Assembly (NCBI GenBank): GCA_013415695.1
Contig: JAAEEP010000010.1
Coordinates: forward strand, 1 to 64,000
Source: Methanomassiliicoccales archaeon
Lineage (GTDB): Archaea > Thermoplasmatota > Thermoplasmata > Methanomassiliicoccales > JAAEEP01
Length of the DNA stretch: 64,000 nt
Direction of reading: 5' to 3'
Under the pieces are notes generated by a model. It worked only from the letters and a program-made list of their open reading frames with translations. It made no database searches and was not told the origin of the DNA. A program made the translations under genes and the position numbers. The number at the start of each line of letters is the position of its first letter. The stretch's first letter is position 1. Positions 4,675-56,684 of the stretch are shown here, in pieces.

Positions 4675-6186
4675 ATGACGGTGGATGAAGATGTCTTGAT
4701 TGAAATCAGGGACCTTTACACCAATTTCTACACCTACCAAGGCGTGGTAAAGGCGCTGGATGGCATTAATCTACAGATCAGGAAAGGAGAGACATTCGGC
4801 CTTGTTGGTGAGACTGGATGCGGGAAAAGTGTAACGGCCAACTGTATCCTTAGACTAATTCCTTCACCGCCTGGCAAGATAGAGAAGGGGTCCATATATT
4901 TCGCCATGCCTAATGAAAAGCGCATGGAGATGCTCTCGCTCGAAAGTAGGCTGTCCGAGATAAGAAAAGGGCTCTCTGAAGCGGATGTCGGAACGATCCA
5001 GAACTACTTCTACGGTAACGGAAAGAAGATTTCAAAGGATAAGAAACGCCAGATATACGGTGCCATGGATTCCAACTCGCGGGATTACATAGATGTTTTC
5101 AATGAGCTTCAGAAACTAAGGACTCCTTATGATCTCCTCAAGGCGAGTGAGAAACATATCAGGAAGATTCGAGGAAAGTACATCTCAATGATCTTCCAGG
5201 AACCCATGTCATCACTGAATCCCACCTTCACGGCGGGAGACCAGATCGCGGAGAACATCCTCCTCCATGAAAGGAAGGATGTGGCCACCTCTGCCGTTGA
5301 TCTGATCGATCGCAGAATCAAAGAGCTGAGAACCTCCCAGGCCAAGAAGGTCAAGACTGGATCAGGAGATCTGCAATGTTCTCACTGCAAGAACATCGTG
5401 AATGCTGAGGACGAATCCTGTTCCAACTGCGGATCACTTTTTTACTCAGAATCGTTCAAAGCCTTCAAGATCCTCATACTGCGCTCATATCGCAAGGATT
5501 GCGTCAATCTGGGCAAGAATCCAAATAACACCTGGTTAAGAATCAAATCGAAGATTCCTATTGCGAACAGGTTCGAGAAGATTATCAAGCAGGAGGCACG
5601 AGATCGCGCAAAGACCATGCTAGAGCTGGTCAGGATCCCGGACCCTTCCAATGTTCTAACATCATATCCACACGAGTTGAGTGGTGGGATGCAACAAAGG
5701 GTCACGATCGCTATGGCCTTGGCGTGCAAGCCACGAATGCTCATAGCTGATGAACCCACCACAGCCCTGGACGTTACCATCCAGGCTCAGATCCTCAAAC
5801 TCATGAACGAACTCCAGGAGGACATGGGGACCTCCATTCTCCTAATAACTCACAACCTCGGCGTTGTGGCAGAGACATGTCAACGTGTGGGAGTGATGTA
5901 CGCAGGCAACATGGCAGAGATCGGATCCGTGATAGAGATATTCAAAGAACCTTTGCATCCCTACACCCAGGGACTCATGAACTCAATCCCAAAATTGACT
6001 GAGGAATTGAGCAGACTGGAGATCATCGAGGGCAATGTGCCAAACCTTGTTCGCCCGCCCCTAGGCTGCAGGTTCAACCCCCGCTGCCCCTTCGCCATGG
6101 GAGTGTGCAGGAAAGTGAAACCGCCACTGATCGAGGTCAAACCCAATCACTTCGTATCCTGTCATCTTTATTCGGAGGGAAGTTGA
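4675..6186 (+). CDS. Peptide ABC transporter ATPase (DppD/OppD family) with an internal zinc-ribbon insert
   Basis: Cytoplasmic ATPase powering the importer. Walker A GETGCGKS is at residues 45-52, the Q-loop glutamine at 175, signature LSGGMQQR at 335-342, Walker B MLIADEP at 355-361 and H-loop His at 393. The C-terminal oligo_HPY region has cysteines 465, 471, 478 and 496, a pattern tied to an Fe-S cluster in some DppD proteins. At 503 aa it is far longer than the usual 320-350: about 90 residues are inserted between Walker A and the Q-loop, and about 110 between the Q-loop and signature. The second insert carries a CxxC-x10-CxxC zinc ribbon (C235, C238, C249, C252). All catalytic motifs are intact, so the protein should be active; the inserts are probably lineage-specific. 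Confidence 0.93.
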   Translation: MTVDEDVLIEIRDLYTNFYTYQGVVKALDGINLQIRKGETFGLVGETGCGKSVTANCILRLIPSPPGKIEKGSIYFAMPNEKRMEMLSLESRLSEIRKGLSEADVGTIQNYFYGNGKKISKDKKRQIYGAMDSNSRDYIDVFNELQKLRTPYDLLKASEKHIRKIRGKYISMIFQEPMSSLNPTFTAGDQIAENILLHERKDVATSAVDLIDRRIKELRTSQAKKVKTGSGDLQCSHCKNIVNAEDESCSNCGSLFYSESFKAFKILILRSYRKDCVNLGKNPNNTWLRIKSKIPIANRFEKIIKQEARDRAKTMLELVRIPDPSNVLTSYPHELSGGMQQRVTIAMALACKPRMLIADEPTTALDVTIQAQILKLMNELQEDMGTSILLITHNLGVVAETCQRVGVMYAGNMAEIGSVIEIFKEPLHPYTQGLMNSIPKLTEELSRLEIIEGNVPNLVRPPLGCRFNPRCPFAMGVCRKVKPPLIEVKPNHFVSCHLYSEGS

Positions 6187-14839: not shown

Positions 14840-15160
14840 AGAAGGTGCTAGGCCACAGCGGTTGCCGGCCGGTCCGAGGAAGATTGTTCGATCGACTTCT
14901 CAACCCCGCACCCCTTCGAGCGTCAGTAGTCCACGGTTGGACTGCTCCCGTCAGGGCCTGGCCCGTTCCCCATGATTAGAGCAAGGAATGCCGCCCTCCG
15001 GCTGCATCGCGATGCCGCCACTGGCCCCGAAGGACAGGGCTTCATAGTTGTTGATCGGGTCTTCAACGCTCCGGTTACGACGTCCACTGCTGTCACCCTC
15101 GCTATCGACGATTTCGATGTAGAAGGGCACGCCGAACGCCCCGGTCAAGCCTAGCAAACT
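14840..15160 (-). ncRNA. ffs: Archaeal signal recognition particle (7S) RNA
   Basis: No protein gene occupies this GC-rich 530-bp gap. On the minus strand the 5' end reads GCTAGGC (15155-15149) and its complement GCCTAGC closes the 3' end (14853-14847), forming helix 2. The Alu-domain part GGGGCGTTCGGCGTGCCC follows the start, and the S-domain helix 8 core CCAGGCCC-TGAC-GGGAGCAG is at about 14962-14943, matching the universal CAGGYCC / GGRAGCAG consensus. The loop is UGAC instead of the usual GGAA. A TATA box lies 25 nt upstream and a pyrimidine-rich stretch follows the 3' end. About 320 nt is normal for archaea. Exact ends are approximate. It works with SRP54 (55.3 kb). Confidence 0.92.
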
Positions 15161-54197: not shown

Positions 54198-55067
54198 ATG
54201 ACCGAACTCTTGGAGGACCTTGAAAAAAAGAGACAAGCCAGCAATTATGAGGCTGAAAAGCACAAGCAGGTGCGAGATCAGCTCAACGAGGAGACCAAGA
54301 AATGGGTGGAGACCAGGGATGAGCTCAATGCCAAGGTCCGCGAGCTCATCGAGGAGGCCTCCAAACACAGAGAAACCAGGGATCAGTTGAACGCCAAGGT
54401 CAAAGAGGCCAAGGCACAACGGGATGATTGGAACAAGAAGGTCAGCGATCTCAACGATACGGTCATGCAGCTCAAGAAGGACAACATGCCAAAGGAAGGG
54501 CCTCCCATCAAGAAGCTCAAGAAGGAGCTCAAGAACATGGAGTTCAAGCAGATGACCTCAGTCCTATCTCCTGAGAAGGAGAGAGAGCTCATCGATCTCC
54601 TCTCTGATATGCAGGCGCAGATCAAGGAGAGGGAGAAGTCCATGGAACAGAACTCAGAGATCAAAGAGGCCATCAAGGAACTGAGGGAAGCTAGAGACAA
54701 GGCCGAAGATCACCACAAGCAGGTGGGCGTGCTTGCTGAGAAGGCACAGTCTGAGCATGACTCAATGATAGATCTCTATGAGAAGGCCGATGAGATGAGA
54801 AAGCAGGCCGATGAGGCTCAGGAGAAATTCATCGAGTGCAAGCTGAAGGCGGACGAGGAACACAGAAAGCATATCGATTTCATCCGCCAGGTGCACGATT
54901 ACGACAAGATAATCACTGGTCTCAGACAGAAGGTTCGTAAAGCAAAGAAGAAGAAGGAAGAGAGCGATGCTAAGAAGGAAGCGGAGGAGATCTTCGAAAA
55001 ATTCAGGAGCGGCGAGAAGCTTTCCACCGAGGACATCATGGCGCTTCAAAAATCTGGGTATCTATGA
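54198..55067 (+). CDS. Long coiled-coil protein (COG1340-like)
   Basis: A 289-residue, highly charged protein that is almost wholly coiled coil; Lys/Glu-rich heptads run from residue 10 to 255. The last part (AEEIFEKFRSGEKLSTEDIM then ALQKSGYL) matches the C-terminal signature I associate with COG1340, once called phosphoserine-phosphatase-like but without catalytic residues. It may act as a structural or ribosome-associated protein; the role is unproven. The ATG has no obvious ribosome site. Confidence 0.82.
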   Translation: MTELLEDLEKKRQASNYEAEKHKQVRDQLNEETKKWVETRDELNAKVRELIEEASKHRETRDQLNAKVKEAKAQRDDWNKKVSDLNDTVMQLKKDNMPKEGPPIKKLKKELKNMEFKQMTSVLSPEKERELIDLLSDMQAQIKEREKSMEQNSEIKEAIKELREARDKAEDHHKQVGVLAEKAQSEHDSMIDLYEKADEMRKQADEAQEKFIECKLKADEEHRKHIDFIRQVHDYDKIITGLRQKVRKAKKKKEESDAKKEAEEIFEKFRSGEKLSTEDIMALQKSGYL

Positions 55068-55178
55068 CCTCTATTTTTGCCAATTGTTAAGATATCTTAA
55101 TGTTTTCTTACTTAAAGATTCCTTCATCAAGGTATGTTTAAACGGCAAAGGTTATATAGTGTTAAGTTAATTATATTG

Positions 55179-55251
55179 TCGGGAAGTTCTGGGCTAGTTG
55201 TAGAGTGCATCCCATCCCTTCTGACAGGCTAGCCCTTCCCAACCCTTTTTT
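55179..55251 (+). ncRNA. Putative small RNA with long hairpin and C-rich loop
   Basis: A GC-rich island in AT-rich surroundings with no coding potential. GTTATATAG (55151-55159) is a TATA box about 25 nt before 55179. The transcript would fold into one arm: GGGAA (55181-55185) with TTCCC (55236-55240); GGGCTAG (55191-55197) with CTAGCCC (55229-55235), a perfect 7 bp; TGTAGAG (55199-55205) with TTCTgACA (55219-55226). The loop TGCATCCCATCCC is C-rich. Six Ts at 55246-55251 would end it. I do not recognise the family: no H/ACA or C/D boxes are seen. It lies 84 bp before srp54. The strand and ends are inferred. Confidence 0.6.
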
Positions 55252-55334: not shown

Positions 55335-56684
55335 ATGGTACTTGAAGGACTGGGGAAATCACTGAGGGATATTCTCGCTAAAGTGGCCAAAGCGGGTCAT
55401 GTAGACGAGAAGCTCGTAAAGGAGATCTCCAGGGACATCCAGAGAGCCCTTCTCCAGGGAGATGTTAATGTCAAACTGGTGCTCCAGCTGACCAAGGACC
55501 TGGAGCGGAGGGCATTGAACGAGAAGCCCCCTGCTGGCATGAGTATAAGGGAGCATCTTGTCAAGATCATTTACGAGGAACTAGTGAAGATACTGGGGGA
55601 GAAACGCAGCATCCCCATCAAAGGCCAGACCATAATGATGGTCGGTCTCTACGGCCAAGGGAAGACAACACACTGCGGAAAACTGGCATACTACTTCAAC
55701 AAAAAAGGAATGAGTGTTGGACTCATAGCCGCCGATGTTCACCGACCTGCGGCCTATGATCAGCTGGCGCAGTTGGGGGAGAAGATCAGTATTCCCGTCT
55801 TCGGAGATCCGAATGAGAAAAACGCTCCAAATATTGTGAAAAAGGGGATGGAGCATTTCTCAGACACGGATATTGTAATAATCGATACCTCGGGCAGACA
55901 TGCACTTGAGGATGATCTCATAGAGGAACTCAAGGCAGTGTCCAAGGTCGCAGAGCCGGACGAACGTATCCTCATTCTTGATGCAGCGACAGGTCAGCAA
56001 GCGGGACCCCAAGCAAAGGCCTTCCATGATGCTGTAGGAGTGACCTCCGTCATCATCACCAAGATGGACGGCACGGCCAAGGGCGGGGGAGCCCTAAGTG
56101 CCGTGGCCCAGACCGAAGCTTCCATCGTCTTCATTGGCACGGGGGAGCACCTCCGGGACCTAGAGGCATTCGAGCCCGCGAGATTCATTTCACGCCTTCT
56201 GGGAATGGGCGACATACAAACATTGATGGAGAAAGCCCAGGAGTCAATGACCGAAGAACAGGCCTTAGAGACCACCAAGAAGATCATGGCTGGCCGCTTC
56301 ACGCTCAAGGAGATGTACGAGCAGATGGAGATGCTCACCAACATGGGACCCCTGCAGAAGCTCATTTCCATGATACCCGGCATGCCTGGACTCACAGATA
56401 AAGTGGACTTTGAGGCATCCCAGGAGAAACTCTATAGGTTCAGAGTGATACTCGATTCCATGACCGACGAGGAGATGGAGAACCCGAAGATCATCAAGTC
56501 ATCACGGGTGATAAGGATCGCCCGTGGCGCTGGAGTCGATCCCAGGGATGTTCGGGAACTTCTTAGGCAATACAACACCTCCAAGAAGGCGGTCAAGGGA
56601 TTCATGGGAAACCGCAAGCTCCGCAAGCAGATGTTGAAGCAGCTTCAGGCCGGGGGCATTGAGGACTTTGGAGGATTCTCATGA
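55335..56684 (+). CDS. srp54: Signal recognition particle 54 kDa protein
   Basis: GTPase of the signal recognition particle; binds the SRP RNA and signal peptides as they leave the ribosome. 449 aa. NG domain: G1 [10 protein letters not shown]2/G3 [11 protein letters not shown] and [14 protein letters not shown]4 [11 protein letters not shown]. The M domain (from about 300) has the hydrophobic, Met-rich groove ([16 protein letters not shown]) and the helix-turn-helix that binds RNA helix 8 ([31 protein letters not shown]). AAGGTG precedes ATG 55335. Its RNA partner is encoded at 14.8-15.2 kb in this window. Confidence 0.96.

Follow-up and report, generated by a model that had tools for sequence, protein, structure and literature searches.

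In the window analysed here, meaning the whole 64,000-nucleotide stretch of a contig from a Methanomassiliicoccales archaeon, we identified a gene for a small RNA (55179-55251, plus strand) which is very likely a trans-acting antisense regulator coordinating cell division and chromosome segregation. Genome comparison indicates that the gene is real and conserved across the phylum, with a covarying structure and a near-invariant C-rich loop. It also reveals conserved sites complementary to this loop in mRNAs of division and segregation genes, at which the changes seen between genomes are mostly compatible with wobble pairing. A search covering part of the literature found no description of the RNA or of its loop sequence. 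This is probably a regulator of the archaeal cell cycle that had not been described before.

The small RNA gene and its homologues

The gene, all of whose elements lie on the plus strand, is preceded by a TATA box, TTATATA (55152-55158), recognised from sequence and homologue comparison. The predicted start of the RNA is at ~55179, ~26 nt past the box, and its length would be ~72 nt. Three nested helices lie between 55181 and 55240. The outermost, P1, pairs GGGAA (55181-55185) with TTCCC (55236-55240) and was defined by fold and alignment. P2, in which GGGCTAG (55191-55197) pairs with CTAGCCC (55229-55235), and P3, in which AGAG (55202-55205) pairs with TTCT (55219-55222), were defined by alignment; both arms of P3 are also able to pair with extended target sites. 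Within P3 is the loop (55206-55218), C-rich and contained in 5'-GAGUGCAUCCCAUCCCUUCU-3', with seed TGCATCCCATCCC and core GCATCCCATC. The gene ends with six T (55246-55251), a probable terminator. An ORF check of the window found nothing of 40 aa or longer over the element. An earlier note on this DNA, made from the letters of the region, had reported a TATA box with a start at the right distance, three nested stems, a six-T terminator and no coding frame, and all four observations stand.

Upstream of the gene is a coiled-coil DUF7121 gene (54198-55067, plus strand) and downstream is srp54 (55335-56684, plus strand), the ATG of which, at 55335, lies 83 nt past the end of the T-run. Neither neighbour is counted as part of the system. 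A similar coiled-coil stretch adjoins the RNA in a distant family (L484), and the archaeal SRP RNA (Rfam RF01857) is encoded in the same window at 14846-15156 on the minus strand.

The fold of the single RNA sequence only modestly beats chance (MFE -22.1, z = -1.7, 13/200 shuffles equally good) and is weak evidence by itself. The T-run was not flagged by a terminator scan, which searches for bacterial-type promoters and terminators and is uninformative for an archaeon. Comparative evidence convinces where the fold alone would not, and for this reason we judge the small RNA to be real. A TATA-like box at the matching distance was observed in 137/147 homologues versus 7 in a control window; this is a second count, made with a widened window and a slightly wider pattern, the first, narrower window having yielded 46/141 versus 4 in the control. 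A T-rich 3' end was observed in 108/141 homologues versus 7 in the control. The element thus appears to be an independent non-coding gene bounded by a promoter and a terminator.

Covariation in relatives, which the earlier note had proposed as a check, was assessed in an alignment of 79 non-redundant homologues (A1), most of them gathered with a 20-mer from the loop. Helix P2 covaries strongly, with 94.9% of cells paired and double changes at 6/7 pairs, and on this comparison qualifies as a conserved RNA secondary structure. Over the named structure, double-change cells numbered 106, versus 36.4 +/- 11 in shuffles. P1 is present and poorly aligned, with 59% of cells paired. P3 and the loop hardly vary, part of this invariance being due to the collection of homologues with the loop 20-mer.

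A covariance model, R1, matches the gene itself at 55179-55250 with 77 bits. Using a 111-nt query, a match was found in 60/61 genomes of the same order, a count in which a few best matches are short (e.g. G019, G051, G058, G060) and may be the target site instead of the RNA gene. R1 matched 165/300 genomes sampled from the class and 175/390 genomes of the phylum sample. Some uncertain members are included in these two counts, because among the weaker deep-family matches of the class that we read, most have the loop and a few, from the weakest end, are not copies of it. Twenty matches from other classes were also fetched and read: in these, the loop and a stem are present, usually with a TATA-like box and T-run as well. 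Finally, a scan of ~85,000 genomes with the 20-mer GAGTGCATCCCATCCCTTCT returned at least 118 stretches; among the matches listed, the 80 with titles are all labelled Thermoplasmata, Methanomassiliicoccales or otherwise archaeal. Among the 118 matches listed, 111 are of RNA-gene type and 7 are in other places. Together, the order-wide matches, P2 covariation, TATA boxes and T-rich ends uphold the earlier proposal of an independent small RNA. Its family, which the earlier note did not recognise, has no Rfam assignment: Rfam 15 contained no family above its curated threshold for this RNA, and at E up to 10 it gave nothing but weak matches, such as an antisense match to SCARNA4 (17.6 bits versus a cut-off of 60).

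Copies of the RNA are also carried by three IMG/VR contigs from two tailed-virus lineages (L287, L288 and L289), in which the loop is kept while the stems are unrelated to those of the host. L287 and L288 share one sequence; the copy is at ~3970-4050 of L287, a contig with portal, protease and major head genes. In L289, the copy lies on the minus strand at ~4957-5040, has a TATA-like box and is flanked by terminase and portal genes. A fourth viral contig, L400, has a site of the target type at 60-90, closely followed by the start codon of an open frame of 273 codons. A sequence search of an annotated phage collection gave no match.

Complementary sites in division and segregation genes

The complement of the loop, GGGAUGGGAUGCAC (for the seed, GGGATGGGATGCAC), recurs outside the RNA gene at fixed positions, in mRNA sense. 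The seed TGCATCCCATCCC is present in 41/41 genomes searched and a reversed control pattern in none. Three locations recur. Site (a) is in the leader between an RHH gene and a downstream ftsZ-like gene. Site (b) follows a CdrS-like RHH gene: it lies in the 3'UTR, usually 8-14 nt past the stop codon and before the terminator. Site (c) is in the smc leader; here a palindrome, GTCCGAC..GTCGGAC, usually precedes the core GATGGGATGC. As estimated from motif positions, the ftsZ-like and smc leader sites are ~55-75 nt before the start codon. We use the name “CdrS-like” because the RHH target scores 50.2 bits (E = 1.9e-13) with NCBIfam NF058555 (CdrS), below the (haloarchaeal) cut-off of 100. Similarly, we write “ftsZ-like” because the tubulin-family target scores 227 bits (E = 3e-67), over the N-terminal part only, with TIGR00065 (FtsZ equivalog), the cut-off of which is 295; it contains the Tubulin GTPase domain PF00091 (E = 6e-42).

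Sites were scored by orthologue, exact matches not being required, in sets of 35 ftsZ-like, 36 cdrS-like and 30 smc genes; cdrS and some ftsZ genes were rescanned since the first regular expression had missed many cdrS. The core GATGGGATGC was intact or G:U-changed in 35/35 ftsZ-like leaders, 36/36 cdrS-like 3'UTRs and 28/30 smc leaders. Of the 36 substitutions at site positions 2-12, all but 4 are G:U-compatible (32). Counted as distinct changes, 9 are wobble-compatible versus 4 that are not (binomial p = 8e-5 under a simple null which ignores phylogeny). With the loop near-invariant, homologues offered no example of RNA and target changing in a compensatory way. In the one natural test of this, genus g42 of family f9, where the loop reads CCCGUCC, a search for the matching target site matched RNA genes only. 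These comparisons point to conserved complementarity between the RNA and mRNAs encoded elsewhere.

The 7 matches outside RNA genes among those listed by the 20-mer scan were read after the targets were known but had not been selected by target gene. All 7 adjoin RHH genes: one (L169) is a CdrS-like 3'UTR, five (L203, L215, L249, L254 and L276) are RHH-ftsZ leaders, and one (L174) lies downstream of an RHH gene, its own downstream gene being without identification.

Outside family f2, the ftsZ-like leaders that were read contain the site in every genome except G005, an order member which is not among the 35 scored leaders. In f2, some ftsZ leaders have GGATGGGA elements, which are shorter and in places tandem, while others show no clear element, and 10/10 smc leaders read have at least GGGATGC. 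The RNA persists in this family even though cdrS turned up in just one f2 genome. In the deep families, pairing is able to extend over an arm of P3 to 20 bp, and some sites are degraded or were not found (e.g. the cdrS site in G074 and the smc sites in G066, G121, G128 and G158). Given these weak or absent smc and cdrS sites, we make no claim that all sites are present in all genomes.

Some sites are less widespread. One touches the start of a gene encoding a small WM(K/R)xHT protein, another the start of the gene after smc in one f2 genome. In the host genome, a perfect 14-nt site lies at the start of a gene for a Xer-like tyrosine recombinase (L081, host contig C1:1114), a target which we claim for this genome only. 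Duplex energies with the RNA in the host genome were -43.4 kcal/mol for ftsZ, -45.4 for cdrS and -45.1 for the Xer-like gene; these were exceeded by only 2/5116 background windows from the 64-kb window, both of which are most likely the RNA's own antisense strand. The smc duplex reached -31.1 kcal/mol (rank 17). When both RNAs were folded, cofolding gave a clear gain for the three targets and little for smc (ddG -3.4).

The WM(K/R)xHT protein recurs with a target site at L053, L056, L111, L135 and L506, mostly together with the palindrome; the one member tested had no Pfam match. GTCCGAC..GTCGGAC itself adjoins the site in nearly all smc leaders (L370-L399) and is found before the WM(K/R)xHT gene at L053, L111, L135 and L506. 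It is possibly a shared operator or a 5' hairpin. In two genomes (L138 and L155), a target-type site directly precedes ORFs that, by eye, resemble MFS transporters; neither these nor matches inside ORFs were treated as conserved targets.

The earlier note had suggested that the loop could pair with G-rich, Shine-Dalgarno-like leaders and that complementary sites be sought there. Such sites were found in ftsZ-like and smc leaders, and GGGATGGG-type sites exist and are conserved. The Shine-Dalgarno part of the suggestion did not hold: the main sites are one specific GGGAUGGGAUGCAC element, not generic Shine-Dalgarno sequences, and one of their homes, the cdrS-like 3'UTR, is not a leader.

Weighing other explanations

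The earlier note also considered a regulatory leader of srp54. An SRP54-type P-loop is indeed encoded within 900 nt downstream in 102/141 homologues scanned, as would be expected if the RNA were a cis-regulatory leader or attenuator of that gene. However, the RNA is not always upstream of srp54. Adjacency is common within the class, but ten copies sampled from other classes have other neighbours, and the virus copies are located among head and tail genes with no srp54 nearby. Most copies, moreover, end in a T-rich stretch, and control of srp54 would leave the ftsZ-like, cdrS-like and smc sites unexplained. We therefore find this alternative unsupported and highly improbable. Because other-class copies adjoin different genes, the position near srp54 is probably inherited context and not function. 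It is even harder to see the RNA as an H/ACA or C/D guide for modification of rRNA or tRNA. It is a short archaeal stem-loop RNA, and CTGA occurs in some copies, but no C box or ACA box was apparent by eye, the Rfam comparison yielded nothing above threshold, just the weak antisense SCARNA4 match, and Rfam found no rRNA or tRNA in 20 of the host loci matching the loop complement with up to 2 mismatches. With neither box motifs nor an rRNA or tRNA target found, we rejected this candidate as extremely unlikely.

Two other explanations accept the sites and read them differently. GGGATGGGATGC might be a double-stranded DNA operator, bound for example by a CdrS-like RHH protein, and might occur in the RNA gene incidentally. 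One of the target genes does encode an RHH protein, ftsZ1 of Haloferax has an upstream DNA motif to which CdrS binds (PMC8406309), and the palindrome next to the smc site resembles a real operator. Yet the orientation is constant, with the G-rich strand in the mRNAs and the C-rich strand in the RNA; the cdrS site lies past the stop codon and before the terminator; and site changes are mostly G:U-compatible, a preference for which an operator offers no obvious reason. In addition, the motif forms the loop of a covarying hairpin, and the viral copies retain this stem-loop layout. An operator is thus very unlikely. Alternatively, the direction of control could be reversed, with the mRNA sites titrating the RNA like sponges, or the RNA could be mainly protein-binding, with pairing secondary. 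Being in a 3'UTR, the cdrS site could leave translation unaffected, and some genomes have it as the loop of a hairpin of its own (GAGAAT-site-ATTCTC). Against this, the site is common to several different genes and some copies touch start codons, suggesting that it is the mRNAs which are regulated; we consider a reversed direction unlikely.

A proposed RNA layer in cell-cycle control

An antisense RNA acting in trans on division and segregation mRNAs is thus the reading we prefer. In this model, a TATA promoter would drive synthesis of a short RNA, the nested stems of which would present the C-rich loop in single-stranded form. The loop would make the first pairs with GGGAUGGGAUGCAC in a small number of mRNAs, after which the duplex could grow into the P3 arms, to 14-20 bp. 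The recurrent targets would be the ftsZ-like leader downstream of the RHH gene, the CdrS-like 3'UTR and the smc leader; less widespread ones would be the starts of the WM(K/R)xHT gene, of the gene after smc and, in the host genome, of the Xer-like recombinase gene. Division and chromosome-segregation genes would most likely be adjusted together in this way. Where a site touches the start codon, translational repression is expected, while sites in 3'UTRs and leaders would be expected to control mRNA stability or processing. Transcription, pairing in the cell, the sign of regulation and the cell-cycle role are what we infer, whereas the gene, its covarying structure, the conserved complementary sites and the wobble-compatible changes are seen in the sequences. 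More tentatively, we suggest as a possibility which falls somewhat short of probable that one RNA, phylum-wide since an early Thermoplasmatota ancestor, jointly controls division and segregation post-transcriptionally and that the copies in tailed viruses act on the same host genes.

Known systems share parts of this scheme. DicF is a prophage-encoded sRNA of E. coli, narrow in range, directed against ftsZ mRNA. As described, it resembles the present RNA in aiming at a tubulin-family division gene and in having virus-borne copies, but the RNA here differs, being encoded by a conserved gene of the host and having several sites in division and segregation genes. RsaE/RoxS-type sRNAs of Firmicutes use unpaired UCCC/CCC motifs, mainly on the Shine-Dalgarno regions of metabolic genes. 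Also compared by description, these likewise pair C-rich unpaired motifs with G-rich mRNA regions, whereas here the site is one specific element of 10-14 nt, in most cases at some distance from the start codon. The closest known relative in manner is sRNA162 of Methanosarcina mazei, an archaeal sRNA whose pairing partner is a trans-encoded mRNA and which has been proposed to mask a ribosome binding site. Its primary transcript measures 191 nt, pairing is through a single-stranded linker, and no more than two close relatives were found to have homologues (PMC3510493), whereas the present RNA, at ~72 nt, is predicted to pair by its apical loop and spans a phylum. In haloarchaea, the CdrS/CdrL-ftsZ2 network ties the same kinds of genes, an RHH CdrS and ftsZ, into division control; that network is transcriptional (PMC7439475, PMC8406309), while the layer proposed here consists of RNA pairing with mRNAs.

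Targets are known for few archaeal small RNAs, and the RNAs of this kind that we found described have narrow ranges. The viral copies suggest that viruses, too, may use RNA-based control. If true, our proposal would mean that the archaeal cell cycle is controlled at the level of RNA too, and would make this control testable in cultured Methanomassiliicoccales.
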